Source: Variovorax flavidus
Lineage (GTDB): Bacteria > Pseudomonadota > Gammaproteobacteria > Burkholderiales > Burkholderiaceae_C
Assembly (NCBI RefSeq): GCF_030317145.1
Contig: NZ_JASZYE010000003.1
Location: 806,001 to 870,000, forward strand
Reading direction: 5' to 3'
Length of the DNA: 64,000 nucleotides
Shown: one piece after another, positions 4,987 to 63,557 of the stretch
Layout: each line of letters opens with the position of its first letter
How positions within the stretch are numbered: position 1 is the first letter of the stretch
Notes under the pieces: model-generated
The model's input: the letters and a program-made list of their open reading frames with translations, nothing else
Database searches by the model: none
Told to the model about the DNA's origin: nothing
Translations under genes and position numbers: made by a program

Positions 4987-4989
4987 CCG

Positions 4990-38301: not shown

Positions 38302-39177
38302 ATGGATTTCCACCACCCGCTCTTCCGGAGCCTTGCGCTGCCGCTGGTACTTGCGTTCGCGGCAGCCGGCCTGCTGCGGGGTGGACTGGGGCCGGTCCAC
38401 GGCCGGCGCTGGGCCTCGGCCGGCACAGGCATCGCGATCGTCGTGGCATCCGTGTGGTTGCTGGGCTGGGACCTGTGGCCCCGCACCCTGACGGAGGAGC
38501 TGCCCTGGATCTACATGGCCGCCGCCTTGCTGGGCCTCGGCCTGGAAGCCATGCGGGCCGCCACGCGAACCACCTGGCTCGCCACCTGCGTCCTCTGGAC
38601 GCTTGTGCTCGCAGGGTTGAGCGACCAGCCGCTCGCCGTGCAGGCCGCGACCTGGCTGGTCGGCATTGCGGTGATTGCGGCAGTGCTCGGCCAACCCCCG
38701 GAGAGCGCCCATGCATCGGCAAGCCTCGTCATCGCCGGCCTCGGACTGGCCGTGGTCGCCTTTGTCAGCGGCTCGGCGCTCCTGTTCGAACTGAGCCTGT
38801 CGATCGCCGCCGCAGTCGCGGGCTGTGCGCTGTGGCTCTGGCCCGTGGCGCGCATCGCCTTCGGCGCTTGCGGGGCGGTGGTCTCGGTGATCGCCTGGCT
38901 GGCCGTGGCGGAAGGCGTTGCGTTGCTGTCGCCCGTGCGGCCCCTGGTGCTCTTGCTGCTGGCGTGCGCCTTCCTGTCCGGGCCGATCGTGCAATGGGCG
39001 GGTCGATGGCTTCGGCAGGCGCCGCCCGGTGTCTCGAGACGCAAGGGGCTCGCTGCACTGATCGTGGCCGTGCTGGCCGCAATCTGGGTGACAGGCGCGG
39101 TGGCGCTGGCTTGGCACGACGATGCGAAGGCACCGGCCAGCGGCCTGGACGACCCCTACTACACGCCTCGATGGTAG
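38302..39177 (+). CDS. Polytopic membrane protein of unknown function
   Basis: The 291-residue protein has about eight to ten predicted membrane helices spread over its length (starting at LALPLVLAFAAAGLL and ending LAALIVAVLAAIWVTGAVAL) and a short polar C-terminus (LDDPYYTPRW). I see no recognisable transporter motif. It lies between the GST gene and the RibD-like gene, in the same direction. It could belong to either set. Confidence that it is a real gene is good; function unknown. Confidence 0.65.
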   Translation: MDFHHPLFRSLALPLVLAFAAAGLLRGGLGPVHGRRWASAGTGIAIVVASVWLLGWDLWPRTLTEELPWIYMAAALLGLGLEAMRAATRTTWLATCVLWTLVLAGLSDQPLAVQAATWLVGIAVIAAVLGQPPESAHASASLVIAGLGLAVVAFVSGSALLFELSLSIAAAVAGCALWLWPVARIAFGACGAVVSVIAWLAVAEGVALLSPVRPLVLLLLACAFLSGPIVQWAGRWLRQAPPGVSRRKGLAALIVAVLAAIWVTGAVALAWHDDAKAPASGLDDPYYTPRW

Positions 39178-39205: not shown

Positions 39206-40102
39206 ATGATGCCCACCCAATCCTCCATTCCGGGCGTCGACGCCCTGTGGCCCCTGTGCCTTGACATCGTGGCTCAGCGCCGGGCGCGCGCTGCACCGCA
39301 GCAATGGGACGCGGGTTCGCCCCTCGCCTGGGACGCATCGCAGGGCTTTGCCCTGCGCGGCGTCTGGGACGCCGACGCGGTCGAGTTGTTCGACCTGCTC
39401 AAACCCCTGCTGGACCGCCCGCGCGAAGGCAGGCCCTGGCTGATCGGCCAACTCGGCCAGAGTCTCGACGGATGCGTGGCAACGCACGGGGGCGACTCCA
39501 ACTACGTGAATGGCCGCGAGGTGCTGGTGCACCTGCATCGACTGCGCGCGTTGAGCGACGCGGTCATCGTGGGCGCCGGCACGGCCGCCATCGACAACCC
39601 GCAACTCACGACGCGTCATGTGGCGGGCGCCCATCCGGTGCGGGTGCTGCTTGATCCGGAACTCAGCCTTTCACCGACCTTGCGTGCTTTCTCGGACAGC
39701 GAGGCCGCCACCTTGCTCGTGTGCGATGCGGCCCGTGCGGTCGAAGCGGCAGAACGGGTCGGCGCCCATCAGGTCCTCGGCGTGCGCGGTCTGACGGGAG
39801 CCGACGGTTCGTTGAACCTCCACGCGCTGACGGCCGCACTGGAAGCGCGCGGCCTTCGGGTGCTGTTTGTCGAAGGCGGTGGCGTCACGGTCTCACGCTT
39901 CATCGCGCAGGGGTGCCTGGATCGGCTGCACCTGAGCATCGCACCGGTGATCATCGGCGCCGGTCGACCCGGGCTGCAGTTGCCGAGGAGCGCCGCGATG
40001 CGGGATTGCATGCGGCCCTCGGGGCGCATCTTTCACATGGGGGCCGACGTGCTGTGGGATCTCGACCTGCGCGCGGCCCAACCCGCAGCGCCGCGCAGCT
40101 AG
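39206..40102 (+). CDS. RibD C-terminal (pyrimidine reductase)-like protein
   Basis: The 298-residue protein contains a RibD_C/dihydrofolate-reductase-fold domain from about residue 75: GQLGQSLDGCVATHGGDSNY, LHRLRALSDAVIVGAGTAAI, and near the end FVEGGGVTVSRFIAQGCLDR. RibD_C enzymes use NADPH to reduce a ribosyl-aminopyrimidine in riboflavin synthesis, but relatives reduce other pterins or pyrimidines. The deaminase domain of RibD is absent, and a poorly conserved 75-residue N-terminal part replaces it. It overlaps the convergent methyltransferase gene by four bases. Its place beside a pterin-synthase-like gene suggests a dedicated biosynthetic role. Confidence 0.85.
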   Translation: MMPTQSSIPGVDALWPLCLDIVAQRRARAAPQQWDAGSPLAWDASQGFALRGVWDADAVELFDLLKPLLDRPREGRPWLIGQLGQSLDGCVATHGGDSNYVNGREVLVHLHRLRALSDAVIVGAGTAAIDNPQLTTRHVAGAHPVRVLLDPELSLSPTLRAFSDSEAATLLVCDAARAVEAAERVGAHQVLGVRGLTGADGSLNLHALTAALEARGLRVLFVEGGGVTVSRFIAQGCLDRLHLSIAPVIIGAGRPGLQLPRSAAMRDCMRPSGRIFHMGADVLWDLDLRAAQPAAPRS

Positions 40103-40980
40103 GTCGCGAGAATTTCCTGGTGCCCGATGCACAGGGAGGTGTGATCGAGGACGTCGATCCGTCTCTGCATCCACTCGCTCACCGAGGCTCTTGCCGTCGG
40201 GTCCTGTTCGATCGCCGCGGCGCCCATGCCTTCCACCATGGCGGTCAGCATCGCCGTGCCGCTTGCGTTTTCGCCGGCATCGATGCGCCAGTCACTGGCG
40301 GCTTGAGCTACCTCATATTTCAACGCGCGGAGACGACTGACGGCAAAGCTCACCGCTGTGCCACCAAGCGCGGGTCCGAATCCCTTGTCTCGGCGCTGAT
40401 GCGAAGCGAAGAGCCGATCGACCTCCGCGTCACCCGCAACCGGCGGATTCCAAGCGATCCGGCCGTCGACATTCAGGGCGAACAGCATGGCCGCGCCCGC
40501 CATTCGAGCATGAGCGAACAGCGCGTCGAGCCAGGATGCGGACACGAGGTCCAGCAGCGCAGATGCGGTGACGAGCCTCGTTCCCGCAAAGGGAACAGCG
40601 CCGAGTTCAAGCGCAAGGTCGATGCACACGGGCCGCACCTCTGCGTTCCAGCCCGGACCTTCGATGTGCATGCGCGTTGCGCCAGCCTCCAGGACGAAGC
40701 CGTTCGCCTGCGTCCATGCGGCGAGCACGCCGGGCAATGCGCCCAGCAGCGCCGGGTCGTGATCAACCAGAGTCCAGCATTGCGAACCGCCCAGACGCGG
40801 AGCGAGCTCGCGCAGATTGGCGCCCGTTCCGCAGGCCAGGTCGAGCACTGCGAGCGTCGGATCTCCACCGCGCAGGCGGGTGGCGAGTGCGTTTCGTGCC
40901 AGCGAGTGTGCCGCGCTGGCGCGTGCCTCGCGGTCAAAGGGTTCGCGCAGCGCGAGCCAGTCGGCGCTGAAGCCGGTCAT
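40099..40980 (-). CDS. Class I SAM-dependent methyltransferase
   Basis: The 293-residue protein has the SAM-binding motif I LDLACGTGANLRELAP (about 46-61), an acidic loop after strand 2 (LVDHDPALL) and the Rossmann-type continuation. The target is unknown. It is the last gene of a minus-strand operon (dehydrogenase, pterin-synthase-like, glycosyltransferase, methyltransferase) and overlaps the glycosyltransferase by four bases. It might methylate a sugar or pterin-derived product. Confidence 0.82.
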   Translation of the reverse strand: MTGFSADWLALREPFDREARASAAHSLARNALATRLRGGDPTLAVLDLACGTGANLRELAPRLGGSQCWTLVDHDPALLGALPGVLAAWTQANGFVLEAGATRMHIEGPGWNAEVRPVCIDLALELGAVPFAGTRLVTASALLDLVSASWLDALFAHARMAGAAMLFALNVDGRIAWNPPVAGDAEVDRLFASHQRRDKGFGPALGGTAVSFAVSRLRALKYEVAQAASDWRIDAGENASGTAMLTAMVEGMGAAAIEQDPTARASVSEWMQRRIDVLDHTSLCIGHQEILAT

Positions 40981-42041
40981 GTGCGAGGCGCGCCCTGAAA
41001 CATGCCAAGTGCCGTCGCGAAACGCCCGGCGCTTTCCGCCCAGCTCGGCAACCGTTGCCGCGCCGCGCGAGCGCCCTCCGACAGCTGCGCGCGCCAGTCG
41101 GCGTCGTCCATCACCCGCTGCAAGGCCGCCCGCAAGGCCAGGCCGTCACCGGGCGGAACCAGCACGCCCGCTTTGGCGGGCACGGTGTCCGGGATGGCGC
41201 CGGCGTTCGTGCTGATCACTGGCAAACCATGCGCCAGGGCCTCGGCCAGCGCCATGCCGTAGCCTTCGTGGAAGGACGGCAGCACGAACGCGTCGGCGTT
41301 TCCATAGAGCGCCCTCAAGCCGGCCTCGTCCTGCTCGCCGTGCAGCACGACTCTGTCGGCCATGCCATGGCGTTCGATGGCTTCGATCAAGGCAGCGGCG
41401 CATGCGGGGTCCATCGTGAGGCTGCCGGCGCAATGCAGCGTCCAGCGTCGGTCGCGCAATCCGGCAAGCGCTTCGATCAGCAGGGCGTGGCCCTTGCGCG
41501 GCGTCACGGTCGCCACGCAAAGCAGCGACAAGCCGGCAGCGTTGGACCCGATCGCGAGCGGTGCCGGCTCGGTCCCGGGCTCGACCACGGCGATGCGGGA
41601 CGCGGGCACGTCGAACGCCGCGAGTGCGCGTGCGGTGGAGGGGCTGGTCACGATCACGCCGCAGGCGGTCGCGAGCGCACGTCGCTCGCTCTCGAACAGT
41701 GCGCGCTGCACGGCAGGGGCGAGACCGGTTTCGAGCGACAGCGGGTGGTGAACCAGCGCGACCCATCGGAGGCGTTGTGCGTGGGCTTCAGCCAGTGCAG
41801 GCATCGCTCCGAATGCAAGGGCATCGACCACCGCAAGTTCGCCATCGGGAATGGCCTCCACGATGCGATGCGCCAGCCCCTGCGACGATGCGTCCGGCAT
41901 GGGCCAGCCCTCACCGAGCGAACGGACATCGACCTGCCACTGGCGCGCGCACAGCCCGTCGATGATGTGGCGGTCGTAGGTATAGCCACCGGTCCGGGTG
42001 TTCAGGTCACCCGGCACGAGGAAGCTGCAGCGACCGTTCAA
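40977..42041 (-). CDS. Family 4 glycosyltransferase
   Basis: The 354-residue GT-B fold enzyme begins with [20 protein letters not shown] (residues 6-25), the loop that in GT4 enzymes contacts the acceptor and phosphates. The C-terminal half has the donor-binding core: [19 protein letters not shown] near 172-190 and [20 protein letters not shown] near 254-273 with the E-x7-E motif. It is a retaining enzyme using a nucleotide sugar. The start overlaps the pterin-synthase-like stop, and the stop overlaps the methyltransferase start, four bases each. Confidence 0.9.
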
Positions 42042-42451
42042 CCCGCACGCGCCGGCAAGGCGCCCTCGTAGGCCGCCCAGGCCACGTGCGATTCGTTGAG
42101 TCGCACGCGCATTGCCGAAAGACCGTTCGCATGGGGGCCCAGTTCGCCCTTGGCGATGCTGTCGGCGATGCGATCGAAGATCACGCGCGCCATGAACTCG
42201 GTGGTCGTGTTCTTTCCCTTGAACGCCGGATCGTCGTCGAGATTGCGCAGGTTGAGTTCACCCAGCACGCTGCGCAGCACCTCGGTCGCGAGCGCGATGT
42301 CGACCACCACGCCATCGGCGTCCAGCTCGGCGCGGCGAAGTTCGAGATCGACCACGTAGGTCGCGCCATGCAGGCGCTGCGCGGGGCCGAACGCCTCGCC
42401 GCGAAAGCTGTGGGCGATCATGAAGTGGTCGCGGACGTTGACGCTGTACAT
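42038..42451 (-). CDS. 6-pyruvoyl-tetrahydropterin synthase-like protein, degenerate site
   Basis: The 137-residue protein has the PTPS/QueD fold: FMIAHSFRG (10-18, first His at 14), a LHG motif (27-29), GVVVDI (47-52), [20 protein letters not shown] (66-85) and NESHVAW (119-125). True PTPS/QueD enzymes have zinc ligands H...HGH and a catalytic Cys before HGH. Here the third histidine is Ala30 (LHGATY), and there is no Cys before it (GPAQRLHG). So zinc binding and the known chemistry may differ. It is translationally coupled to the glycosyltransferase (4-base overlap) and follows the dehydrogenase gene. Confidence 0.85.
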
Positions 42452-42477
42452 GGGGGCCTTTCGGGTTGCGATGGGGT

Positions 42478-43476
42478 TCAGGGGTAGTCGATACGCTGGC
42501 ACAGGGTGTCGGGTGCACCTGCGGCAAGGCGCGCGAGCACATCCGGCAGCTCGTCGAATGGGGCGCTGTCGGTGATGAGCACGTCGAGCACCGGATCGCG
42601 CAGCAGCGACAAGGCCAGCGCGAGCCTGCGGTGATGGTTCCAGCGCGCGCGCTGGGCACCGGCCACATGGCCCACTTGTGAACTCTTCAGCGTGAGGCGC
42701 CGCGCGTGGAAGGCTTCTCCCAACGGAAGCGCGACTTCGCGACTGCCGTACCAGCTCATCTCGATCACGGTGGCCTCGAACGCCGCCAGATGCAATGCGG
42801 TGACAAGCCCTTGCGCACTGCCGCTCGCATGCACGACGAGGTCGGCTTCCGGCTTCGCATCCTGCGGGCTCGCAAATGCCAGGCCCAGTGCTTCCGCCAC
42901 CCCGCGACGCGAGGGGTTCAAGTCGATCAACTCGACCGCGCAACCCGGCAACCGCGCAGCCAGCCACGCCACGAGAAGCCCCACCACGCCCCCGCCCACC
43001 ACGGCGATGCGATCGCCGATGCGGGGCGTCGCATCCCACAGGGCATTGACGGCCGTTTCCATGTTGGCGGCCAGCACGGCACGCGCGGCAGGCACGCCTT
43101 CGGGAACCAGGTGCAGGGCATTGGCCGGCACGACGTAGCGGGTCTGGTGCGGATAAAGGCAGAAGATGGTACGGCCCAGGAGCGCGTCCGCCCCCTGCTC
43201 CACCACTCCCACACTGGCATAGCCATACTTCACCGGCGCCGGGAAGTCGCCCTCCTGAAACGGCGCCCGCATCCGGTCGAACTCGGTGGCCGGCACCTCG
43301 CCGCCATAGACGAGCATCTCCGTCCCGCGGCTGATGCCGCTGTGCAGCGCCCGCACCAGCACGTCACCGGCGGCGGGTGCATGGACTTCGGCACTGCGGA
43401 TCGCCGCCCGGCCGGGCGCCTCGATCCAGCAAGCCCTTGACTCACCTGAAAACACGTGGGACGGATATGCTGGCAT
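42478..43476 (-). CDS. Medium-chain (zinc-type) alcohol dehydrogenase family protein
   Basis: The 332-residue MDR protein has the GroES-like N-terminal domain ([17 protein letters not shown] near 46-62, [15 protein letters not shown] near 77-91) and a Rossmann domain with the NAD(P) motif [13 protein letters not shown] (about 158-170). The catalytic-zinc Cys of typical alcohol dehydrogenases is replaced by Ser/Arg in ISRGTEM, as in the BchC-like branch acting on larger cyclic substrates. It is the first gene of the minus-strand arm and diverges from the phosphatidyltransferase gene. The substrate is unknown. Confidence 0.85.
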
Positions 43477-43487
43477 GCTGCTTTTGG

Positions 43488-43506
43488 CGCTCGCTGGCCG
43501 CGAGCG
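43488..43506. repeat. Short hairpin in the divergent cluster promoter region
   Basis: CGCTCGC and GCGAGCG pair around a 5-base loop between the two arms of the 39-47 kb cluster (dehydrogenase start 43476, phosphatidyltransferase start 43544). It may be an operator or a leader structure. If the plus-strand gene uses an upstream ATG at 43475, the site would be coding, so this is uncertain. Confidence 0.3.
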
Positions 43507-43543
43507 ATCCCTGTTCAAGCCGATGGAAGGCGATCTTAAGACG

Positions 43544-44326
43544 ATGACTTCGCAGTCCTCCAACGACCGTCGCGTATTCCCGTCGAGCCCCGCGGCAGCA
43601 CTGCGGCATGACGCCTGGCGCGAGGCCCTGGCCTGCCTCGTGCTGCTGACGCTGCTCGCCGGCGGCGCCGGGCTGCTGGCTGGACTGGGTCCGTGGTTTC
43701 ACGTCAAGGCTGTGGGGCTGTTCATCGCGGCCTTCGCCATCGTCCAGCGCGGTCTTCTGGAGCATTCGCCCAATCTGCGCTTCGGCCCCGCCAACCGGGT
43801 GACGCTGGTGCGCCTGGCGCTCGTGGCACTGCTCGCAGCCGGCGTCGGCGAACCGTCTGCCGACGCCGCTGCAATCGCCTGGGCGACCATCGTCATCGCC
43901 ACGACCGCCGCGCTGCTCGATGCACTGGACGGACCGCTGGCACGGGCGCGCGGATTCGCCAGCGAATTCGGCGCGCGCTTCGACATGGAGACGGATGCGC
44001 TGATGGTGCTCGTCCTGTGTCTGCTGGTGCTTCATTTCGACAAGGCCGGCATGTGGATCATGGCGGCCGGTCTCATGCGCTACGTGTTCGTGCTGGCCGC
44101 CGCGGCCTGGCCCTGGCTGGCCCGACCGTTGCCGGCGAGCCAGCGGCGCAAGGCCGTGTGCGTGGCGCAGATCACCAGCCTGATCGTGTGTCTCGGCCCC
44201 ATCGTCCCGGTCGCCTGGAGCCAGGTCATTGCCGCCGCCAGCCTGGCCGCCCTGAGCGCGTCCTTCGGAATGGACATCGTCTGGCTGGCCCGTCGTCGCC
44301 ATTCCCCCCTGGAGGCTGCACCATGA
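43544..44326 (+). CDS. CDP-alcohol phosphatidyltransferase
   Basis: The 260-residue membrane protein has six or more helices and the full active-site signature of the CDP-alcohol phosphotransferase family at residues 126-151: D-x2-DG-x2-AR-x8-G-x3-D-x3-D ([12 protein letters not shown] then GARFDMETD). These enzymes move a phosphatidyl or other phospho-alcohol group from a CDP donor to an alcohol. The acceptor is unknown. In-frame ATGs at 43523 and 43475 could also be starts; 43544 leaves an upstream GGAAGG. Its stop overlaps the YceI start (ATGA). Confidence 0.88.
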
Positions 44327-44916
44327 ATGCTTCGCCCATGCGGCTGCTGTGCCTTGCCCTGCTCCCGCTGATGGTGCTGGCCTCGCGGGCGCGGGCCGAA
44401 CCGGCGCGCTACGAGCTCGACCCGAATCACATCACCGTCGCCTTCATGGTCGACCATCTCGGCTACGCCAAGGTGCTCGGGATGTTTCGCGCGGCGCGCG
44501 GCAGCTACAGCTTCGACGAAAGCACCGGCACGCTCGGCAACGTGCGCATCGAGGTCGACACGCAGAGCGTGTTCAGCAACTACGCCAGGCGTGACCAACA
44601 TCTGAAAAGCGCGGATTTCCTCAACGCCAGCGAGTTCCCGCGCATGGTGTTCACGGCGGCCACCGCCCGGCGGACCGGCGACCGCAGCTTCGAGATCCCC
44701 GGCCAGCTCGAACTGCTGGGCCGGCCGCAGCCGCTGACGCTCACCGCGACCTGGAACAAGAGCGGCCCCTCGCCGATCGACAAGGTCTACACGATGGGCG
44801 TGTCGGCGCGCGGCAGTTTCAAGCGCAGCAGCTTCGGCATGAACTACGGCGTGAGCAACGAGTGGGTTGGCGACGAGGTGCCGCTCATCATCGAATTCGA
44901 GGCCCAGCGCAAGTGA
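44323..44916 (+). CDS. YceI family periplasmic lipocalin-like protein
   Basis: The 197-residue protein has a signal peptide (MRLLCLALLPLMVLASRARA, residues 6-25) and a YceI beta-barrel domain: ELDPNHITVAFMVDHLGYAK, then HLKSADFLNASEFPRMVFTA near 93-112 and LTATWNKSG, with the C-terminal DEVPLIIEFEA. YceI proteins bind long isoprenoid or amphiphilic ligands. Four-base overlaps with both neighbours (ATGA before, GTGA after) couple it to the phosphatidyltransferase and to the membrane phosphatase-like enzyme, suggesting a shared lipid-type substrate. Confidence 0.92.
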   Translation: MNASPMRLLCLALLPLMVLASRARAEPARYELDPNHITVAFMVDHLGYAKVLGMFRAARGSYSFDESTGTLGNVRIEVDTQSVFSNYARRDQHLKSADFLNASEFPRMVFTAATARRTGDRSFEIPGQLELLGRPQPLTLTATWNKSGPSPIDKVYTMGVSARGSFKRSSFGMNYGVSNEWVGDEVPLIIEFEAQRK

Positions 44917-46583
44917 CTGCCGGCGGCCGGCATCCCCCGCCGCCTGGCGCCGTGCCCTGGCCCGGATGGGCGCGATGGCTCCTGCGCTTTGGCCTGCCCT
45001 TCGTGGTGCTTGATGCGATGTTCACGCTCGAGAACATCTGGCCGACGTTGTGGGCGCGACCGGGCCTGCGCCTGTCCTTCGAGTTGTGCATGGCGGCGCT
45101 CGCGCTCACGGCATGGCTGGCCGCGCGCGGCACCGCAAGCGCGCGGATGTTGCGCGCGCTGGCGCTCCTCACCACCTTCTGGGTCGTCACGCGCTATGTG
45201 GAGGTCACTGCATCGGCGGTCTTCGGCCGGCAGATCAACCTGTATTGGGACGGCCGTCATCTGTTCGACGTGCTTCGCATGGGCAACGTCGCGGGATGGC
45301 AGATCGCGCTGGGTGCGGCCGTTGCGGTGGCGGTGGTGTGGCTCGTGTACCGGATCGCTCACCGGTGCTGGGCGGCCATCGCGCGCGAACTCGCGTGGCG
45401 CCGGCCGCGTCCGGCGATCGGCGTCGTCGGCGTCCTTCTGCTGGCGACTTTCACGGCGCACGGCATGGGAGGACGCGACACACGCTGGTTCTTCTCGATG
45501 CCGGTGACGCCCATCATTGCCAGACAGGCCGGATTGCTTGCAGCCCAACTGTGGCCCGACGGCGGCTCGACGCGGCTCTCGCCCAGCCCGACCTTCGACA
45601 CGCATCTGGGCGCACTCGGCGGCGCCGACGTTCTGCTGATCTTCGCGGAGTCCTACGGCGTCACGACACTCGACGACCCCGCCCAGGCTGCCGCGCTCGC
45701 ACCGCACCGTGCGCGGCTCGCCGAAGCCCTGCGGGCAGGCGGACGACAGGTGGTGTCGGCGCGGGTGCGTTCACCCACCTACGGTGGCGCTTCATGGCTC
45801 GCCCACGCCGAACTCCTGAGCGGTGTCGACATGCAGAAGCCTGGGGACTACGAACTGCTGCTCGCTACGCAACGACCCACCCTCGTGCGGCACTTCAAGG
45901 CCCATGGCTACCGCACCGTGAGCTGGATGCCGGGACTGCAACGGCCCTGGCCCGAAGGCAGCTTCTATGCCTTCGACCGCTACGTCGATGCGAACAACAT
46001 GGGCTACGGCGGCCCGGGTTTCGGCCACTGGCGCATTCCGGACCAGGCGTCGGTCGCGTTGATGCAGTCACAGGAGCTGGCCATCACACCCGCCCCGCGC
46101 GCACCGCGCCTGATTGTCTTCCCGACATTGGCCAGCCACGCGCCGTTTCGCCCCCTGGCGCCCTACGTGCCCGACTGGGACCGGCTGCTTGGCGCCGATG
46201 CCTTCACACCGGACCAGGTGGCGCGGGCCGTCGCCGAGCCGCTGTCATGGCTGGAGCCGGTCCGCGCCTATCTCGATTCGCTGGCCTACACCTTCGAGTG
46301 GCTCGGCGACTACCTGTCAGGCCGCGCCCCACCGAACATGCTGACGATCGTGATCGGCGACCACCAGCCGATGGCGAGCGTGAGCGGCCGCGGCGCATCA
46401 TGGGATGTGCCCGTTCACATCATCAGCGACGACCCGCAGCTCCTGAAGCGATTCGAAGCTGCCGGCTTCACACGAGGCCTCCTGCCAATGCAGGCTTCCA
46501 CCATGTCGATGCATGGCCTCACGTCCGTGCTGCTCCACGCATTCGACGACTCGGCGCGCCATCCTGCGGGCGCCGCCGAATAA
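44913..46583 (+). CDS. Membrane-bound alkaline phosphatase superfamily (sulfatase-like) enzyme
   Basis: The 556-residue protein has five or so N-terminal membrane helices (about 15-170) and a periplasmic alkaline-phosphatase-fold domain like that of LTA synthases, phosphoethanolamine transferases and sulfatases. Visible are the metal and nucleophile region ADVLLIFAESYGVTTL, SPTYGGASWLAHAELLSG, and the metal-binding TIVIGDHQPM near 480. The GTG at 44913 overlaps the YceI stop (GTGA) and is the likely start. Likely role: transfer or removal of a phospho-alcohol group on an envelope lipid or glycan; inferred. Confidence 0.85.
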   Translation: MTAGGRHPPPPGAVPWPGWARWLLRFGLPFVVLDAMFTLENIWPTLWARPGLRLSFELCMAALALTAWLAARGTASARMLRALALLTTFWVVTRYVEVTASAVFGRQINLYWDGRHLFDVLRMGNVAGWQIALGAAVAVAVVWLVYRIAHRCWAAIARELAWRRPRPAIGVVGVLLLATFTAHGMGGRDTRWFFSMPVTPIIARQAGLLAAQLWPDGGSTRLSPSPTFDTHLGALGGADVLLIFAESYGVTTLDDPAQAAALAPHRARLAEALRAGGRQVVSARVRSPTYGGASWLAHAELLSGVDMQKPGDYELLLATQRPTLVRHFKAHGYRTVSWMPGLQRPWPEGSFYAFDRYVDANNMGYGGPGFGHWRIPDQASVALMQSQELAITPAPRAPRLIVFPTLASHAPFRPLAPYVPDWDRLLGADAFTPDQVARAVAEPLSWLEPVRAYLDSLAYTFEWLGDYLSGRAPPNMLTIVIGDHQPMASVSGRGASWDVPVHIISDDPQLLKRFEAAGFTRGLLPMQASTMSMHGLTSVLLHAFDDSARHPAGAAE

Positions 46584-46892: not shown

Positions 46893-47900
46893 TTATTCGA
46901 CGGCCGCCTTGGCCACGGCAACGGCCGCCTCGCGCGGCAGCGCGACCGCATTCTTCACAGCCAGGATCTCCGCCATCACGCTCACCGCGATCTCGGGCGG
47001 CGTCTTGCTGCCGATGTAGATGCCGATCGGCCCGCGCAGGCGCGCGAGCGATGCCTCGGTCTGGTCGAAGTGATCGATCATGCGTTCGCGCCGCGCCTCG
47101 GCATTCCGGCGGGAGCCTATGGCGCCGACGTAGAAGGCCTCGCTGTTCAAGGCTTCGAGCAATGCGAGATCGTCGAGCTTGGGGTCGTGCGTGAGTGCGA
47201 CCACGCAGGTCCGGCGATCGGGCTTGAAAGCCGTCACGGCGTCGTCGGGCATCTCGGTGGTGATCGCCACGCCCGGCAGGGACCAGGCGGTGTGGTACTC
47301 GGTGCGCGGGTCGCACAAGGTCACCGCGAAGCCGCTGAACTTCGCCATCGTCGCGAGGTATTCGGCCAGTTGGCCGGCGCCGATCAGGAGCATGCGGTAC
47401 TCGGGGCCGAAGGTGTTGACCAGCTCGGTGTCGTTGACCGACAGCTCGGCAGGCGATGCTGCCTCGGCGAGCGTGACGGCGCCGTCGGCAAGCGCCACCG
47501 TGCGCTGCATGAGCAGGCCCTGCTCGAGCGCCGCGACCAGCTTCTCCAGCGAGGCGGGATCGGGGTCGTACTCGAGCAGCAGTTCCAGCGTGCCGCCGCA
47601 GGGCAGCCCGAAACGATGCGCCTCGTCGGCGGTGATGCCGTACTTGACGAGCGCCGGTGCACCGGACGGCATCGCGCCATCGCCACCGTGCGCACGGCTG
47701 TAGCGCGCGATCAGGTCGTCTTCGATGCAGCCGCCCGAGACCGATCCGACGACCGCGCCGTCCTCGGCCAGCGCCATGATCGAGCCAATGGGACGGGGCG
47801 ACGATCCCCAGGTGCGAACCACGGTGGAGAGCAGCGCGCGACGACCGGCCAGACGCCAGTCGCGCAGGGTGCGAAGCACCATGACGTCGAGGTTTTCCAT
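46893..47900 (-). CDS. XdhC/CoxI family molybdenum cofactor insertion protein
   Basis: The 335-residue protein has the XdhC N-terminal domain (TVVRTWGSSPRPIGSIMALA near 26-45, GSVSGGCIEDDLI near 51-63) and the XdhC Rossmann C-terminal domain (MLLIGAGQLAEYLATMAKFS near 168-187, AIGSRRNAEARRERM). XdhC binds molybdenum cofactor, helps add its sulfur ligand and inserts it into xanthine dehydrogenase family enzymes. It is the last gene of the cox-like operon. Confidence 0.93.
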   Translation of the reverse strand: MENLDVMVLRTLRDWRLAGRRALLSTVVRTWGSSPRPIGSIMALAEDGAVVGSVSGGCIEDDLIARYSRAHGGDGAMPSGAPALVKYGITADEAHRFGLPCGGTLELLLEYDPDPASLEKLVAALEQGLLMQRTVALADGAVTLAEAASPAELSVNDTELVNTFGPEYRMLLIGAGQLAEYLATMAKFSGFAVTLCDPRTEYHTAWSLPGVAITTEMPDDAVTAFKPDRRTCVVALTHDPKLDDLALLEALNSEAFYVGAIGSRRNAEARRERMIDHFDQTEASLARLRGPIGIYIGSKTPPEIAVSVMAEILAVKNAVALPREAAVAVAKAAVE

Positions 47901-47926
47901 ATCTGTATCCCGCTTTCCGAGGCGCC

Positions 47927-48523
47927 TTATTCGCCTGGCTTCTCGTCTGTCTTTTCGTCGGCAGCCTTGTCGGACTTCCTGCCGATGCCGAGCTTCTGCA
48001 TGAAGCCGGCCACGGCGCCCGTCTTTTCCGCCGGCGCTTCCTCCGCGGGCGCTTCAGCGGGCGGCGGGCCGTAGCGGCTTTGCATCTCGGCTTCGAAGCG
48101 CTTGAAGAAATCGTCGGCGGTCGACTTGGCCGCGCCGTCGATCAGGCGCTGGCCGAGCTGGGCGATCTTGCCGCCGACCTGGGCCTGCACCGTGTAGTCG
48201 AGTTCGCAGCCTTCGCCGCCATCCGCGACCGGCTTGAGCGACACGCTCGACGCGCCCTTGGCGAAACCCGCGACGCCGCCCTGCCCTTCGAAGGACAGCT
48301 TGTAGCTGTCGGGCGGTGCGATGTCCGCCAGGCTGACCTTGCCGTTGAACTTGGCCGACACGGGGCCGATCTTGACGGCGAGCGCGACGGTGTACTGGTT
48401 CTCGCCGGTCAGCTCGAACTTGTCGCAGCCGGGGATGCATTTCTTCAGCGTTTCAGGATCGTTCAGTGCTTCCCACGCCTGCTGCTGCGTGACGCCAAGC
48501 CTGCGATTGCCGAGCATTTCCAT
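47927..48523 (-). CDS. coxG: CoxG-type SRPBCC protein
   Basis: The 198-residue protein has a START/SRPBCC fold like the carbon monoxide dehydrogenase G family: NRRLGVTQQQAWEALNDPET at the start and IPGCDKFELTGENQY after it. The C-terminal 50 residues form a low-complexity Ala/Glu/Lys-rich tail that may serve as a membrane anchor or flexible linker. In Oligotropha CoxG helps to bind the enzyme to the membrane. It lies between the XdhC and CoxE genes in the operon. Confidence 0.9.
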   Translation of the reverse strand: MEMLGNRRLGVTQQQAWEALNDPETLKKCIPGCDKFELTGENQYTVALAVKIGPVSAKFNGKVSLADIAPPDSYKLSFEGQGGVAGFAKGASSVSLKPVADGGEGCELDYTVQAQVGGKIAQLGQRLIDGAAKSTADDFFKRFEAEMQSRYGPPPAEAPAEEAPAEKTGAVAGFMQKLGIGRKSDKAADEKTDEKPGE

Positions 48524-48565
48524 GGTGGATTCCTTTTTTTGGTGGTGTGTTGCGCGGCGCCGCCG

Positions 48566-49771
48566 CTATCGGCCGGACCGCATCAACCTGGCCAGGCTCG
48601 TGGCCAGTTCTTCCAGAGCACTGAGATTGTGGACTGCGAGCATCGCGTCTGCATGGCGGTGCAACATGGCCGCGCCGCGCGCCAGCGGCGCGTAGCCCTC
48701 GTAACGCAGCAGCGGGTTGAGCCACAGCACGCGTCGCGAATGGCGCTTGAGCCAGAGCAACTCGTTCTCCAGCGTTTCGGGCTCGCCGGTGTCCAGGCCG
48801 TCGCTGATCACCAGCACGAGCGTGCGACGGCCGGTGAGGCGGCGCGCATGACGCCGGCGCAGCTCGCCGAGCGATGCCCCCAGGCGCGTGCCGCCCGCAA
48901 AGTCGTCGATGGCTTCGCTGGCCGCGGCCAGCATCGCATCGGTGTCGGCAATGCGGAAGGCCGGGGTCAGGTCGGTCAGGTGCGTGCCGAATGCGAAGAC
49001 GTCGCGCCGACCGGAGCGCCGCGTCGAAGCGTGGAGAAAGGCGAGCAGCAAGCGCGCATAGCGCTCCATCGAGCCGGACACGTCGACCAGCACCAGCAGC
49101 GGCAGGGGTTGCTTGCGGCGCGACCACCGCGGCAGCCGCATGATCTCGCCGCCAGTGCGAGCCGCCTCGTGCAGCACGCCGGGCCAGTGCATGCGCGAAT
49201 GGGCGCCGGCGTCACCGATCAGACGCAGGCGGCGCGCGGGCAGCGTCGGGATCGGCAGCGCGATGTCGCGGGCCAGACGCTCCACCAATCGGTACTCCGC
49301 AGCGCCGAGCGCGTTGAAGTCGGCGTGGTGCACCCGCAGCCGGTCGCTCGCCGTCATGGCGGCATCGAAGTCGACCTCGCGATCGGTCTGTGCGGGCTTG
49401 ACGGTATCGCGCGGCGCAGCGAGCGCCTCGCGAACGCGTGGCCGGCGCTTCGACGGCTCGGCCTTGCCTTCGGCGCTCGGCAGCATCTGGGCCAGCAGCT
49501 TGTTGGCAAGCTCCGGGTCGCGAAACCAGGCATCGAAGAGTTCGCGGAACACCAGCCGGTCCTCCTCGCGGCTGATCATCACGGCCTCCATCGCGGCCGC
49601 GAGGTCGAGACGGTTCTCGACGCCGACCAGCGTGGCCGCCTCGGCGGCGAGCGCGATGCGCATGGAATCGGTGCGCACGCCGGCACGCCGCAGCGCGCGG
49701 CCGAAGCCCAGCAGGTTGCTCGCGAGCTTGCCTCGCCGCGCATCACCCAGCTGCTGGACGCGGGTGCTCAA
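48566..49771 (-). CDS. coxE: CoxE-type VWA domain protein
   Basis: The 401-residue protein contains a von Willebrand A domain in its C-terminal half with an intact MIDAS (DVSGS at 230-234, conserved Thr in GGTRLG and Asp in ISDGLDTG). CoxE works with the MoxR-type ATPase CoxD to mature the active site of molybdenum hydroxylases. No ATG lies at the expected place; a TTG overlapping the coxD stop (TTGA) gives the full N-terminus and is chosen as start. A downstream ATG would remove about 36 residues. Confidence 0.88.
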   Translation of the reverse strand: MSTRVQQLGDARRGKLASNLLGFGRALRRAGVRTDSMRIALAAEAATLVGVENRLDLAAAMEAVMISREEDRLVFRELFDAWFRDPELANKLLAQMLPSAEGKAEPSKRRPRVREALAAPRDTVKPAQTDREVDFDAAMTASDRLRVHHADFNALGAAEYRLVERLARDIALPIPTLPARRLRLIGDAGAHSRMHWPGVLHEAARTGGEIMRLPRWSRRKQPLPLLVLVDVSGSMERYARLLLAFLHASTRRSGRRDVFAFGTHLTDLTPAFRIADTDAMLAAASEAIDDFAGGTRLGASLGELRRRHARRLTGRRTLVLVISDGLDTGEPETLENELLWLKRHSRRVLWLNPLLRYEGYAPLARGAAMLHRHADAMLAVHNLSALEELATSLARLMRSGR

Positions 49772-50697
49772 GGGGCGGCCTCCTCCTCGGGCTTGAGGAG
49801 ATCCGACGCAAGCTCGTGCGTCAGCGCGGCGACGTCGTCGCGCTGCTTGAAAAGGATGCCGGCGGTGTCGACCACGATCTCGGGATCGAGCTCGATGGTG
49901 TCGAGCGCGACCAGCGCCTTGGCCCATTCGACGCTCTCCGCGATGCCCGGTCCGCGCTGGAATGCGCTCGCGAAGGGGGCGCTGCGCAGCCGTCCGACGA
50001 AGGCCGCGACCTGCCCGGAAAGCACTTCCCCCGCCTGCGGCACCTGCGCCCGCACGATCGCCAGCTCGCGCTCGCGCTCGGGGTAGTCGAGCCAGTGGTA
50101 GAGGCAGCGCCGCTTGACGGCATCGTTGAGTTCGCGCGTGCGGTTGCTGGTCAGCAGCGTGACCGGCGGCACCAGCGCGCGCACCGTCCCCAGTTCGGGA
50201 ATGCTGACCTGGTACTCGCCCAGGTATTCGAGCAGGAAGGCCTCGAAAGGCTCGTCGGCACGATCGACCTCGTCGATCAGGAGCACAGCGCCGGGTGCCG
50301 GCGCCTGCAACGCCTCCAGCAGCGGCCTGCGGATCAGGTAGCGCGGCTGATAGACCTCGGATTCGATGTCGCTCGAAGCACCGTGGGCCTCGGCCGCGCG
50401 CATGTGCAGGAGCTGCGCCGCGTAGTTCCATTCATAGAGTGCCTCGCGCTGCTCGAGCCCGTCATAGCACTGCAGGCGCAACAGCTCCCGCTGGAGCGCA
50501 GTCGACAGCGCCTTGGCGAGTTCGGTCTTGCCGACACCGGGCTCGCCTTCCAGCAGCAAGGGACGCTGGAGCTTGAGCGCGAGATACACCGCCGTCGCAA
50601 GCCGCCGATCAGCGTAATAGCCGGCGCCTTGCAGCGCCTGCACAACCGCGTCGATGGTGGGGAACGGTGCGGTCGTGGCAGGCGTGGTCTCGGTCAT
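49768..50697 (-). CDS. coxD: MoxR-type AAA+ ATPase, CoxD-like
   Basis: The 309-residue ATPase has Walker A GEPGVGKTEL (51-60), Walker B VLLIDEVDR, and sensor/Arg finger segments (LTSNRTREL) of the MoxR family. In form I CO dehydrogenase operons CoxD unfolds or remodels the apoenzyme to allow copper-sulfur maturation. Here it sits with a form II-type large subunit. It starts 9 bases after coxM and overlaps coxE by four bases. Confidence 0.92.
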   Translation of the reverse strand: MTETTPATTAPFPTIDAVVQALQGAGYYADRRLATAVYLALKLQRPLLLEGEPGVGKTELAKALSTALQRELLRLQCYDGLEQREALYEWNYAAQLLHMRAAEAHGASSDIESEVYQPRYLIRRPLLEALQAPAPGAVLLIDEVDRADEPFEAFLLEYLGEYQVSIPELGTVRALVPPVTLLTSNRTRELNDAVKRRCLYHWLDYPERERELAIVRAQVPQAGEVLSGQVAAFVGRLRSAPFASAFQRGPGIAESVEWAKALVALDTIELDPEIVVDTAGILFKQRDDVAALTHELASDLLKPEEEAAP

Positions 50698-50706
50698 TTC
50701 TACAGC

Positions 50707-51498
50707 TTAGCCGAGCGCCTTGGCGACCGCTCGCTGCGTCAGCACGCTGATCAGGTTGCCACGGTAGGCGGCCGAGGCGTGCAGGTCGCTGTTGAGATCG
50801 CTCGAATCGATCTTCACGGCGGCCGCCGATTCGGACGTGAAGCTCCTTGCCAGCGCGTCTTCCAGACCCTTGTGCCGGAACACGCCGTTGCCCGCACCCG
50901 TGACCGCGACGCGCACTCCGCCGTCGTACTGTGCGACGAAGACGCCGACCAGCGGGAAGTTCGAGGCCTTCTGGCGCAGTTTTTCATACGCGGCGCGCTT
51001 CGGGATCGGAAAGCGGATGGCCTTGATCAGCTCGCCATCCGTCAGGGCGGTGGTGAAGAGGCCCAGGAAGAAATCGTCCGCAGCGATTTCCCGCTGCGTG
51101 GTGACGATGGTCGCTCCCGAGCCGAGCACCGCGCTGGGATAGCAGGCGGCCGGATCGTTGTTGGCAACGGAACCGCCCAGGGTGCCCATGGCGCGTACCT
51201 GCCGGTCGCCGATGCGCGAAGCGAGATCGGCCAGCGCCGGGTAAGCGGCCTTGATCTCGGCGTTGTTCGCGACATCGAGATGCCGCGACATCGCGCCAAT
51301 CAAGAAGGCGTTGCCCTCCTTGGTGATGCCGGTGAGCTCCTTGACGCCGCTCAGGTCGGCGAGTTGCTCGGGCGCAGACAGGCGCAGCTTCATCGAGGCC
51401 AGAAGGGTCTGGCCGCCGGCCAGCGGCTTGGCACCCGCAGCGGCGAGCTTGACGGCGTCCGCCAGGGTGGTGGGGCGTTCGAGGGTGAAGGCGTACAT
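50707..51498 (-). CDS. coxM: CO dehydrogenase-like medium (FAD) subunit
   Basis: The 263-residue protein is the FAD-binding subunit of a three-part molybdenum hydroxylase. Flavin motifs AGGQTLLASMK (about 27-37) and TLGGSVANNDPAACYPSAVL (about 106-125) are clear. It transfers electrons from the iron-sulfur clusters to an acceptor. It lies between coxL and coxD on the minus strand with short gaps. Confidence 0.94.
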   Translation of the reverse strand: MYAFTLERPTTLADAVKLAAAGAKPLAGGQTLLASMKLRLSAPEQLADLSGVKELTGITKEGNAFLIGAMSRHLDVANNAEIKAAYPALADLASRIGDRQVRAMGTLGGSVANNDPAACYPSAVLGSGATIVTTQREIAADDFFLGLFTTALTDGELIKAIRFPIPKRAAYEKLRQKASNFPLVGVFVAQYDGGVRVAVTGAGNGVFRHKGLEDALARSFTSESAAAVKIDSSDLNSDLHASAAYRGNLISVLTQRAVAKALG

Positions 51499-51519
51499 GG
51501 TGTTTTTTCCTTCTGGTGT

Positions 51520-53964: not shown

Positions 53965-53974
53965 GTCGTGCTCC

Positions 53975-54469
53975 TCAGGCCGAAGCCGTTGCCTTGGCAG
54001 GGGCAGCGGCCATCGCTTCGCCGCCCATCTGCACGGCCTTCACGATGTTCTGGTAGCCGGTGCAGCGGCACAGGTTGCCGTCGAGCAACTCGCGGATTTC
54101 GGTTTCGCTCGACTTGGGATGGTGCGTGCAGAGGTCGATGGCACTCATCACCATGCCGGGCGTGCAGAAGCCGCATTGCAGGCCGTGGCACTCCTTGAAG
54201 GCGGCCTGCATGGGATGCATCGTGCCGTCGGGCTGGGCGATGCCTTCGATGGTGGTGATGTGAGCGCCAGCCACCTGCGCGACCAGCACGTTGCACGACT
54301 TGATCGCGCGTCCGTTGACGTGCACGGTGCAGGCGCCGCACTGCGCGGTGTCACAACCGACATGCGTGCCGGTGAGGTGCAGATGCTCGCGGATCGCGTG
54401 CACGAGAAAGGTGTTGGGGGGCGCGTCGACCGTGACCTCGCGGCCGTTGACCGTGAAAGGAACCTGCAT
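53975..54469 (-). CDS. coxS: CO dehydrogenase-like small [2Fe-2S] subunit
   Basis: The 164-residue protein carries two [2Fe-2S] clusters: plant-type [15 protein letters not shown] (about 39-53) and the four-helix type [16 protein letters not shown] followed by [12 protein letters not shown] (about 95-143). It is the first gene of the minus-strand operon coxS-L-M-D-E-G-xdhC. It lies 180 bases from the divergently transcribed GAF-Fis regulator. Confidence 0.95.
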
Positions 54470-58110: not shown

Positions 58111-59499
58111 TCAGGCCTTGTCGGACTTGCCCGCAGCGTTCGCGAACTTGCTGAGCATCCGGTCGACGAGCCACGGTTGGCGGTTTTCGTCTTCCGCCCG
58201 CTCCTTGCGGCGGATCGCGTTGCGAACCACGATCGATCCGACATAGCGGATCGGCTCCGGCGGAAAGTGCCCGAGCGGCCCCTTCGTCAGGGGGCTCCGG
58301 GTCCAGGCGTTGTCCTGGTCGAGCAGCATGGACGACAGGATCTGGCCGCCCATGTAACTCGGCCCGACGCCGTTGCCCGAATAGCCGAACCCGTAGAGGA
58401 TGTGCGGCGCGCCATCCAGCTTGCCGAAGAAGGGGAATCCCGTGACGGACCGGTCCGACGGACCGTTCCAACTGGCAGTGATGGGCGTGTCCCGCAAGGC
58501 CGGGAAGAACGAATGCAGCGCATCCGTCAGCTCCGCCTCGTAGGGCGACCGCTGGTCGAAGACCGGCGCGATGCGCCCGCCCCACGAGAAGGTGTTGCCG
58601 CCCTTGCCCAGCATGAGCCGCCCGTCGACCGTGCTGCGGTAGTAGTAGACAAAGGTGCGTGAATCAAGAACGGAGACACCGTCGACCAGACCGCTCTGCC
58701 GGAGCAGCTCCGGGCATCGTTCGGTGATCACCATGTCGCTCGACACAACTGCGATCGTGCGCTCGAACTGCGGGAAAGTGCTCGCCATCCAGGCGTTGAT
58801 CGCCAGGACCAGCTTCTTCGCCTCGATGCTGCCGCAGGGCGTTCGCACTGTGACGGGATGGCCGGTGCTGAAATCCAGCATCGGGCTGCGCTCGTAGATC
58901 CGGATGCCCATCGCCAGCGCGGCGCGACGCAGGCCGCGGACCAGCTTGCCGGGATGCACGGTCGCGGCGATTGGTGAATACACGCCCGCCAGGTTGCGCG
59001 CAGAGCCCGAGCGGCGCGCAACCTCTTCCGGCGGGAGCGCGTGGTAGGACTTGATGCCGCAACTCTCCAGCGCCTGCATCACAGGGTCGAGGGTGCCGAT
59101 CTGGGCCTGCGAGGTCGCGGTGTAGAGCGTGCCGTCCTGGCGCAATTCCGCATCGATGCCGTGCTCGCGGCAGAAGCGGGCGATGTGATCCACCACCGCC
59201 TCCGAGGCCTTCACCAGACGGATTGCCTCCGCTTCGCCGAAGAGCCGGCGCAGGGTGAAGAACTTCGCCGACCAAGTGAGGAGGCAGCCGCCGTTGCGCC
59301 CACTGGCGCCAGCGCCGCAGAGATCGCTCTCGACGATCGCGATATCCAGGGAAGGGTCCTGCTGCTTGGCCTGGATCGCCGTCCAGAGCCCGGTGAAGCC
59401 GCCTCCGACGATGCAGATGTCTGCACGCTGCGCGCCTTGCAAGGCCGGCGCCAGTTCGCCATCCTTGAAGAGCGCCTGCTCGATCCAGAAGGGACGCAT
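58111..59499 (-). CDS. Putative aminophosphonate FAD oxidoreductase
   Basis: The 462-residue DAO-family flavoprotein begins MRPFWIEQALFKDGELAPAL, has the FAD motif ICIVGGGFTGLWTAIQA (28-44), GAGASGRNGGCLLTWSAKFF (about 62-81) and a C-terminal GFGYSGNGVGPSYMGGQIL. It resembles the oxidoreductase group described as associated with phosphonate utilisation, some members of which act on N-methylated 2-aminoethylphosphonate. It is followed on the same strand by no other gene of the set, being the last gene of the operon after the HD protein. Substrate is inferred from context. Confidence 0.85.
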   Translation of the reverse strand: MRPFWIEQALFKDGELAPALQGAQRADICIVGGGFTGLWTAIQAKQQDPSLDIAIVESDLCGAGASGRNGGCLLTWSAKFFTLRRLFGEAEAIRLVKASEAVVDHIARFCREHGIDAELRQDGTLYTATSQAQIGTLDPVMQALESCGIKSYHALPPEEVARRSGSARNLAGVYSPIAATVHPGKLVRGLRRAALAMGIRIYERSPMLDFSTGHPVTVRTPCGSIEAKKLVLAINAWMASTFPQFERTIAVVSSDMVITERCPELLRQSGLVDGVSVLDSRTFVYYYRSTVDGRLMLGKGGNTFSWGGRIAPVFDQRSPYEAELTDALHSFFPALRDTPITASWNGPSDRSVTGFPFFGKLDGAPHILYGFGYSGNGVGPSYMGGQILSSMLLDQDNAWTRSPLTKGPLGHFPPEPIRYVGSIVVRNAIRRKERAEDENRQPWLVDRMLSKFANAAGKSDKA

Positions 59500-59505
59500 G
59501 CCGGA

Positions 59506-60075: not shown

Positions 60076-60077
60076 GG

Positions 60078-61526: not shown

Positions 61527-61546
61527 CGTGATGCTTCCGTGCGACG

Positions 61547-63503
<1,957 letters not shown>

Positions 63504-63531
63504 GGAACGCATTTTTCGCCCCATATCGTCA

Positions 63532-63557
63532 ACTGTCAACAATTTTTTATTGACAGT
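63532..63557. promoter_or_regulatory. GntR-type operator overlapping divergent promoters
   Basis: ACTGTCAA (63532-63539) and TTGACAGT (63550-63557) form a perfect inverted repeat with a 10-base AT-rich spacer. The right arm contains TTGACA (63550-63555), the -35 box of a promoter pointing to the binding-protein gene. The left arm read on the other strand also gives TTGACA toward the GntR gene. A dimeric regulator bound here would block both directions. The palindrome is seen; the regulator match is inferred. Confidence 0.75.

Follow-up and report, generated by a model that had tools for sequence, protein, structure and literature searches.

We describe here a cluster of eight genes in a window of 64,000 nucleotides of the Variovorax flavidus contig NZ_JASZYE010000003.1; all coordinates are positions in this window. 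The genes encode a medium-chain dehydrogenase/reductase (MDR), a protein of the 6-pyruvoyltetrahydropterin synthase (PTPS) family, a family 4 glycosyltransferase (GT4), an S-adenosylmethionine (SAM)-dependent methyltransferase, a RibD_C reductase, a CDP-alcohol phosphatidyltransferase (CDP-OH), a YceI-family protein and a membrane enzyme of the alkaline phosphatase superfamily (ALP). Our comparison with relatives gives good support to the view that these genes form a unit and represent a variant of a biosynthetic cluster that is widespread and uncharacterised. The order MDR, PTPS, GT4, methyltransferase on one strand and within 4.5 kb is kept in 70 of 80 contig loci, in 23 of the 26 loci obtained by drawing Pseudomonadota genomes evenly, in seven of eight plasmid loci (two of them haloarchaeal) and in the window, whereas none of the partner families scored over threshold in 20 control loci with ordinary QueD/PTPS genes. 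Thus, the grouping goes beyond chance, and the single functional unit that a preliminary description of this DNA had proposed is borne out. What we observe is a conserved core in a conserved order, whose proteins form clades of their own and whose PTPS-like member has lost the catalytic residues of PTPS. As to its product, we favour the reading, to which we give slightly less than an even chance, that the cluster turns a GTP-derived diaminopyrimidine into a methylated and usually glycosylated envelope product via a phospholipid or glucan step.

The features of the cluster, with domain matches in brackets, are as follows.

39206-40102, plus strand: RibD_C protein, pyrimidine reductase-like, stand-alone gene, 298 amino acids, convergent with the minus arm (Pfam RibD_C 8.9e-35)
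40099-40980, minus strand: SAM methyltransferase, 293 amino acids (Methyltransf_25 8.9e-05, below the Pfam cut-off; fold model)
40977-42041, minus strand: GT4 glycosyltransferase, 354 amino acids, TTG start inside the 4-base overlap (Glyco_trans_1_4 1.2e-28)
42038-42451, minus strand: PTPS-like T-fold protein, 137 amino acids (Pfam PTPS 3e-25)
42478-43476, minus strand: MDR oxidoreductase, BchC-like (NCBIfam bchC 1.8e-15, under the model cut-off; ADH_zinc_N)
43477-43543: divergent spacer of 67 bases between both arms (coordinates of the open reading frames, ORFs)
about 43544-44326, plus strand: CDP-OH protein, alternative start at 43523 (Pfam 1.5e-15)
44323-44916, plus strand: YceI-family protein, N-terminal signal-like stretch, seen by eye (Pfam YceI 6.3e-35)
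44913-46583, plus strand: ALP membrane enzyme, GTG start (Sulfatase 5.8e-06; LtaS/GacH/EptA-like fold)

Six of the products are supported by Pfam (RibD_C, GT4, PTPS, CDP-OH, YceI and ALP/sulfatase); the MDR and the methyltransferase score below the curated Pfam cut-offs and are identified by weaker matches. The layout given in the preliminary description holds in full, with all eight ORFs and five 4-base overlaps read from the sequence, namely PTPS/GT4 (42038-42041), GT4/methyltransferase (40977-40980), methyltransferase/RibD, stop to stop (40099-40102), CDP-OH/YceI (44323-44326) and YceI/ALP (44913-44916). Judging from this layout, the 67-base spacer is likely to be the promoter region of both arms.

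Conservation and distribution of the gene set

A search of genome contigs with the PTPS-like protein yielded 508 confirmed relatives, the best 80 of which were analysed, a set biased towards Burkholderiales. The even draw of Pseudomonadota genomes (random-phylum loci) comprises 26 loci from 11 families, and the plasmid set used for the profile counts eight loci. All loci were searched with profiles of 14 families, at score thresholds of our own that were fixed together with the counts. Because the 80 contig loci and a few plasmid members had served to build these profiles, there is some circularity in the counts on both sets. More independent are the 26 loci, which had no part in profile building and contain nothing nearly identical to the 80 (75% over 1.2 kb at best). 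As controls served 20 of 30 canonical QueD/PTPS loci, in 11 of which the cluster PTPS model itself scored at least 20 bits. In the following, counts are given for contig, random-phylum and plasmid loci, in this order.

RibD was present in 65/80, 22/26 and 4/8 loci (64, 21 and 3 of them convergent downstream), the loci listed without it being 14/80, 4/26 and 4/8, and CDP-OH in 53/80, 12/26 and 5/8 (50, 12 and 3 divergent upstream). The preliminary description had named a separation of the two arms in other genomes as speaking against it; instead, both arms recur together. Among loci with full flanks, MDR, PTPS and GT4 were accompanied by CDP-OH in 43/58 contig and 11/24 random-phylum loci, and by either CDP-OH or an MdoH-like gene in 45/58 and 19/24, respectively. 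The trio of CDP-OH, YceI and ALP was found in 23/58 and 0/24; YceI as such occurred in 30/80, 4/26 and 0/8 loci and ALP in 35/80, 3/26 and 2/8. The wide core consists of MDR, PTPS, in most cases GT4 and methyltransferase, and RibD; CDP-OH is common, and YceI and ALP count as accessory. Across all 28 pairs of the eight families (n 26 to 105 loci per pair), distance matrices correlated with r 0.61-0.88, values reached in 0/200 permutations and uncorrected for species phylogeny, which supports, without proving, a joint inheritance of the eight families.

Cluster-type PTPS genes were found in 27 of 398 Pseudomonadota genomes and in 41 of 100 genomes of the same genus, the host genome of 6.6 Mb being counted in both; its closest relatives found are Variovorax. 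The cluster-type PTPS is a patchy accessory trait. MDR, PTPS, GT4 and methyltransferase also lie together in a Gemmatimonadota and an Acidobacteriota metagenome-assembled genome (MAG; L063 and L059, L-numbers being the locus labels of relatives in this analysis), on plasmids of Streptomyces and Microbacterium (L082, L087) and on two haloarchaeal plasmids (L088, L089), where the PTPS identity is only ~30%. A Polyangiaceae MAG (L050) combines MDR and PTPS with CDP-OH, RibD and a GT4-like match. PTPS-like genes were present in 22 plasmid records, and the loci of 14 were examined. Agrobacterium and Rhizobium plasmids carry ALP, a flippase-like gene, CDP-OH, cyclohydrolase II, MDR, PTPS, GT4, methyltransferase, RibD and cytochrome b together; L228 holds MDR, PTPS and GT4 only, and L083 has no other core member besides its PTPS-like gene. 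Near the lone PTPS genes of the Streptomyces plasmids L083, L226 and L227 (at about 8000-10400), cupin and MBL-fold genes were seen, with a MEKHLA-domain gene in two of them. A membership of Planctomycetota was rejected: the single MAG contig concerned (L042, filed as Phycisphaerales) shares its other neighbours with the Competibacter-type contigs L043 and L061 and is probably mis-binned.

Core enzymes and the proposed pyrimidine entry

The PTPS-like protein is confirmed as a T-fold PTPS domain by its Pfam match, and its nearest solved structure is 3d7j, SCO6650 of Streptomyces coelicolor (2.2e-49), a member of the same PTPS-like family. In an alignment with canonical members, the position of the catalytic Cys is Ala in 30/30 rows and the zinc-ligand motif HGH is HGA in 30/30 bacterial rows, so that one zinc ligand is lost. 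In the LDH motif, the His gives way to D, E, Q, N or G, in most rows to D or E; the window protein has LDD. E117, invariant in 30 rows, aligns with the Glu that binds the pterin in canonical members, and we take the two to be equivalent. Motifs peculiar to the family are VR.H, AHS, FG.AQ and HGAT. Haloarchaeal relatives (L088:8992-9369, L089:8992-9369) keep an HSH zinc pair without the Cys and, by their sequences, may stand midway from PTPS to the cluster protein of bacteria. In a tree of 29 hand-picked bacterial cluster rows and 23 canonical rows, the latter from those of the 30 canonical loci that our profile matched and in part with long branches, the cluster rows fall into a single group (100/97), separate from the canonical ones. 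The NCBIfam QueD score of the window protein is 47.3 bits against a cut-off of 89.25. SCO6650 is said to bind no zinc and to lack both the triad and PTPS activity while keeping a pterin-like site. Having lost residues of the PTPS/QueD reaction, the cluster protein does not belong with the pterin synthases known so far.

The MDR reached 56.9 bits with NCBIfam bchC against a cut-off of 291.25, its Rossmann part being matched; judged by eye, it seems to be without the zinc-ligand positions that are usual in zinc MDRs. The nearest solved relatives of the GT4 are Tll1590, MshA and BshA. A sequence search of the methyltransferase and the ALP against solved structures gave nothing at the cut-offs used; the AlphaFold model of the methyltransferase (predicted local distance difference test score, pLDDT, 95.2) had 3mgg as best Foldseek match (6.8e-12), and its residues G51, G53, D73 and D75 are invariant in 22 rows. 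The glycosylation and methylation suggested in the preliminary description are supported, GT4 and methyltransferase recurring in order, and are qualified by the loci in which one or the other is missing.

The 298-residue reductase matches RibD_C as its sole Pfam family, and its best matches among solved chains are reductases of the riboflavin pathway (2azn, 1.4e-20; 6p8c, 1.1e-19). In a tree, 25 cluster RibD rows form one group (100/100) apart from 26 canonical bacterial rows; the tree covers neither archaeal stand-alone reductases nor canonical rows below 75 bits (L141, L142, L205), and the cluster rows L200 and L203 had been labelled by score beforehand. A position inside the ordinary queuosine or riboflavin clades, which the preliminary description had named as telling against it, was thus found for neither protein. 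An ordinary riboflavin paralogue was rejected on account of the separate RibD clade, and an ordinary queuosine paralogue on account of the own clade and lost residues of the PTPS-like protein. Of five RibD_C matches in the V. flavidus genome, the best is the canonical RibD on contig 1, 1.4 kb from GTP cyclohydrolase II, and the cluster gene is second. The cluster RibD is therefore a second, dedicated copy. At 38302-39177 on the plus strand, 28 bases upstream of the RibD gene, lies an ORF for a hydrophobic protein of 291 amino acids without a match in Pfam or NCBIfam, a possible operon partner of RibD. It has tblastn matches in 13/80 loci, all within L002-L026 and belonging to Variovorax and a few other Burkholderiales, and adjoins RibD in 12 of the 13.

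The GTP-type chemistry proposed beforehand is strengthened by two further families near the relatives, GTP cyclohydrolase II (14/80, 11/26, 2/8) and creatininase (17/80, 6/26, 2/8). The V. flavidus genome itself has two cyclohydrolase and four creatininase family matches, none of them on the contig of the cluster; one is a second, divergent GTP cyclohydrolase II-like gene far from it (C1:326353-326775). SCO6655, a Streptomyces GTP cyclohydrolase II, reportedly has Met as a switch residue and stops at the formylaminopyrimidine. The cyclohydrolase of the Streptomyces locus L082 has Met where 25/27 rows have Tyr (L075 did not show the motif), and a creatininase gene lies beside it. The bacterial formamidase BrbF, first annotated as creatininase, removes such a formyl group (PMC9478397). 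The pair in L082 agrees with a deformylation of the formylaminopyrimidine in Streptomyces. As an obligatory deformylase, creatininase was not upheld: Tyr-type cyclohydrolases have creatininase neighbours as well, which leaves this role unsure in general. The presence of cyclohydrolase II next to a reductase whose nearest kin act on the diaminopyrimidine ribotide favours a riboflavin-type pyrimidine entry. Between the pterin and the pyrimidine origin considered in the preliminary description, the balance has thus shifted to the latter.

Envelope arm, periplasmic glucan genes and window neighbours

In the CDP-OH protein, D127, D130, G131, A134, R135, G144, D148 and D152 are invariant in 15/15 rows; they make up DxxDGxxAR...GxxxDxxxD, which we take to be the CDP-alcohol phosphatidyltransferase motif. 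The model of the ALP (pLDDT 86.6) shows long N-terminal helices in its secondary structure, and Foldseek matched it to 3lxq, LtaP, MCR-1 and GacH. In a structural comparison LtaS was best (Z 20.6, root-mean-square deviation 3.3 over 262 residues), with LtaP, GacH, BcsG and EptC- and MCR-type headgroup transferases as further matches and sulfatases at Z 17-18. A place of the modelled ALP in the LtaS/OpgB/EptA-type phosphotransferase subgroup is therefore favoured rather than proven. E246, S294, D483 and H484 are invariant in 23 rows and T289 nearly so. With the LtaS/GacH/EptA phosphotransferases the window ALP shares the fold, the long N-terminal helices and the metal-site motif; the nucleophile of LtaS is Thr. 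In the window ALP either S294 or T289 may take this part; by eye, the invariant S294 was assigned to the probable nucleophile position.

Other envelope-related and accessory families recur near the relatives, namely the flippase-like LPG_synthase_TM (12/80, 11/26, 3/8), FkbM methyltransferase (18/80, 8/26, 1/8), cytochrome b561 (3/80, 7/26, 2/8) and an MdoH-like protein (5/80, 10/26, 1/8). In eight of the 26 random-phylum loci (L120, L124, L126, L129, L132-L135) the MdoH-like gene is divergent from MDR at the position of CDP-OH, and none of the eight has CDP-OH, which suggests two alternative membrane steps. Clustering of the unassigned neighbours gave ABC transporter ATPases (9 loci) and MdoG (7 loci) as the widest groups, and the glucan families were identified as MdoG (Pfam 4.3e-192), MdoH (NCBIfam) and OpgC (Pfam). 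Within the examined stretch, MdoG, MdoH or OpgC was detected by tblastn (1e-10) in 14/26 random-phylum loci, at 1.5-8.3 kb from PTPS and in 7 of the 11 families of this set, as well as in 11/80 contig loci, 1/14 plasmid loci and 0/20 controls. These are the genes of osmoregulated periplasmic glucans, whose headgroup phosphotransferase is OpgB; the window ALP has such a headgroup-phosphotransferase fold, and we know of no counterpart of the core enzymes in glucan synthesis. Together with the LtaS/OpgB-like ALP, the glucan genes point to the periplasm, and perhaps to its glucans, as the destination of the product. Of the envelope arm in the preliminary description, the recurrence of CDP-OH with the core has stood, YceI and ALP having turned out to be accessory; the lipid proposed there may be the envelope partner of the product, and the glucan genes near the relatives suggest a glycan in addition to, or instead of, a lipid.

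Further genes of the window were noted. Directly next to the cluster (46893-54469) lie genes for a CO dehydrogenase-like molybdenum hydroxylase and for XdhC- and CoxG-like proteins. A link to them was rejected: XdhC and CoxG accompany the cluster in 12/80 loci, which all come from close relatives (Variovorax, Xenophilus and one unclassified genome of Burkholderiales), and the association is therefore local. A TRAP transporter (3913-6847) adjoins Mrp-type Na+/H+ antiporter genes (7293-12288), which include a fused subunit with Proton_antipo_M, MbhD, MbhE and MnhB domains. At 58111-63599 an FAD oxidoreductase, an aldehyde dehydrogenase, a PhnA-like phosphodiesterase and a GntR/FCD regulator are encoded, a set reminiscent of phosphonate breakdown.

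Proposed pathway and alternatives

In the pathway that we favour, GTP would be converted to the diaminopyrimidine ribotide by GTP cyclohydrolase II, which is borne by the cluster in 11/26 random-phylum relatives and would in V. flavidus be the housekeeping riboflavin enzyme. The dedicated RibD_C reductase would then form the ribityl compound. With its retained Glu, the PTPS-like protein may bind this pyrimidine or a pteridine derived from it and, together with the BchC-like MDR, modify it by a chemistry other than that of PTPS or QueD. The methyltransferase would add a methyl group and the GT4 usually a sugar. In the CDP-OH versions, including that of the window, the product or its phosphorylated polyol might be coupled to a phospholipid headgroup and cross the membrane, in relatives perhaps with the flippase-like protein; in other versions an MdoH-like glucosyltransferase would take the place of CDP-OH. 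In the periplasm, the LtaS/OpgB-like phosphotransferase could pass the product on, possibly to periplasmic glucans, YceI serving as the lipid carrier. We infer this chemistry, and for its later steps we rely on family, fold and neighbours.

Several observations weigh against this pathway. GT4 is missing in L131 and L231 (and in one cut contig), the methyltransferase in L125 and L128 (also in L050 and three cut contigs), and MDR is not beside PTPS in L042, L043, L052 and L061 (also in two cut contigs). RibD over threshold is missing in L082, L088, L089 and four of the 26 random-phylum loci; in the genome of L114, which has no RibD nearby, a cluster-type RibD lies ~62 kb from the locus (L203). 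Of the 26, 14 are without CDP-OH, and YceI and ALP lie outside the wide core. On three of the 14 plasmids, L083, L226 and L227, the PTPS-like gene stands without the cluster. The cluster of the window has neither GTP cyclohydrolase II nor creatininase; the Met-type cyclohydrolase was seen in only 1/27 rows, and creatininase accompanies Tyr-type enzymes as well. Finally, no glucan gene is among the Pfam-scanned genes of the window, the glucan link being made via relatives only.

The strongest alternative, though in our judgement an unlikely one, is a pterin glycoside pathway in which the GTP cyclohydrolase I product dihydroneopterin triphosphate is the substrate of the PTPS-like protein and the MDR, RibD_C acts as a dihydropterin reductase (its fold resembles that of dihydrofolate reductase), GT4 adds the sugar and the envelope genes are mere neighbours. 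The PTPS fold with its pterin-binding Glu and the lack of CDP-OH in more than half of the random-phylum relatives would fit. Pteridine glycosyltransferase pathways unite a PTPS-family protein and a glycosyltransferase as the cluster does, and glycosylated tetrahydrobiopterin occurs in cyanobacteria, Chlorobium and Sulfolobus (PMC5683033). However, the relatives carry GTP cyclohydrolase II; GTP cyclohydrolase I does not appear in the annotated plasmid loci, the other loci having had no profile search for it. Furthermore, the catalytic Cys and His are lost, the solved structures closest to the RibD_C protein are pyrimidine reductases, and the methyltransferase and the envelope arm are extra to such pathways.

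Somewhat more improbable still is a tailoring of periplasmic glucans or phospholipids, for which the RibD_C and PTPS-like folds would have been recruited to an unrelated sugar or polyol. The CDP-OH, LtaS-like, YceI and flippase-like neighbours and the frequent glucan genes, absent from all controls, speak for it; the glucan link raised our estimate of this explanation and slightly lowered those of the pyrimidine pathway, of the pterin glycoside and of the new metabolite class discussed below. Against such tailoring, GTP cyclohydrolase II recurs next to RibD_C, and it is the lipid and glucan genes that vary, while MDR, PTPS and mostly RibD stay. A second route to riboflavin or a flavin analogue is very unlikely. 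It would account for RibD_C and the cyclohydrolase II paralogues; however, RibB, RibH and RibE were not recognised among the recurring neighbours (by eye and a few Pfam scans), housekeeping RibA and RibD lie elsewhere in the genome, and GT4 and the PTPS-like protein would be left unexplained. Synthesis of queuosine or another 7-deazaguanine with an ordinary QueD, as the NCBI annotation of plasmid relatives (6-carboxytetrahydropterin synthase) implies, can practically be dismissed in view of the separate clade, the lost triad, the QueD score far under its cut-off and the absence of QueC, QueE and QueF from the Pfam-scanned genes of the window and the annotated plasmid loci.

No description of this gene set or pathway was found in the open-licence literature, a coverage mostly without subscription papers, in line with the preliminary statement that no characterised pathway has this set. 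The closest known pieces come from S. coelicolor, whose SCO6650 and SCO6655 gene products have reportedly been studied singly; we know of no pathway or product for them. The Streptomyces locus L082 unites CDP-OH, MDR, PTPS-like, GT4, methyltransferase, flippase-like, creatininase and GTP cyclohydrolase II genes, whereas the window version is without cyclohydrolase, creatininase and flippase-like genes and has RibD, YceI and ALP. The early archaeal and fungal riboflavin steps (GTP cyclohydrolase II/III, ArfB or BrbF, ribotide reductase) resemble the favoured pathway in the nearest structures of the reductase and in the cyclohydrolase and creatininase of the relatives. They differ in that the cluster RibD stands apart from bacterial RibD, riboflavin-completing genes were not recognised, and PTPS-like, MDR, GT4 and methyltransferase genes are extra. 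Toxoflavin-type clusters use paralogues of GTP cyclohydrolase II, RibD-like and methyltransferase genes in a special pathway; they are not known to have GT4, PTPS-like or lipid genes, and other Tox genes, though not sought one by one, were not recognised in the cluster. Vicine and convicine are glucosides, and to our knowledge their plant pathway has no PTPS-like, MDR or lipid genes. In faba bean, the cyclohydrolase II product is diverted to these special pyrimidine compounds (PMC12202586). Given such diversions and the known pterin glycosides, the general kind of pathway is already known; the product itself has a reasonable chance of belonging to an entirely new class.

Overall, the cluster houses orphan pieces, a solved PTPS-like structure and a cyclohydrolase with an odd product, and the assignment to the cluster-type PTPS corrects the routine annotation of such genes as 6-carboxytetrahydropterin synthase. 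The small size of the core set makes the question of the product directly testable. It is possible, although we consider it rather doubtful, that the envelope-linked metabolite belongs to a class of its own, a GTP-derived pyrimidine or pteridine with methyl and sugar groups that would be borne by a phospholipid headgroup and passed to periplasmic glycans. Bacteria of several phyla and, with a shorter version, haloarchaea would share its cluster, and the central step would fall to a T-fold enzyme that has given up the catalytic machinery of PTPS for a new reaction. As the gene set keeps its order in Variovorax, in MAGs of Gemmatimonadota and Acidobacteriota, in Streptomyces and, with four genes, in haloarchaea, the product must be useful.

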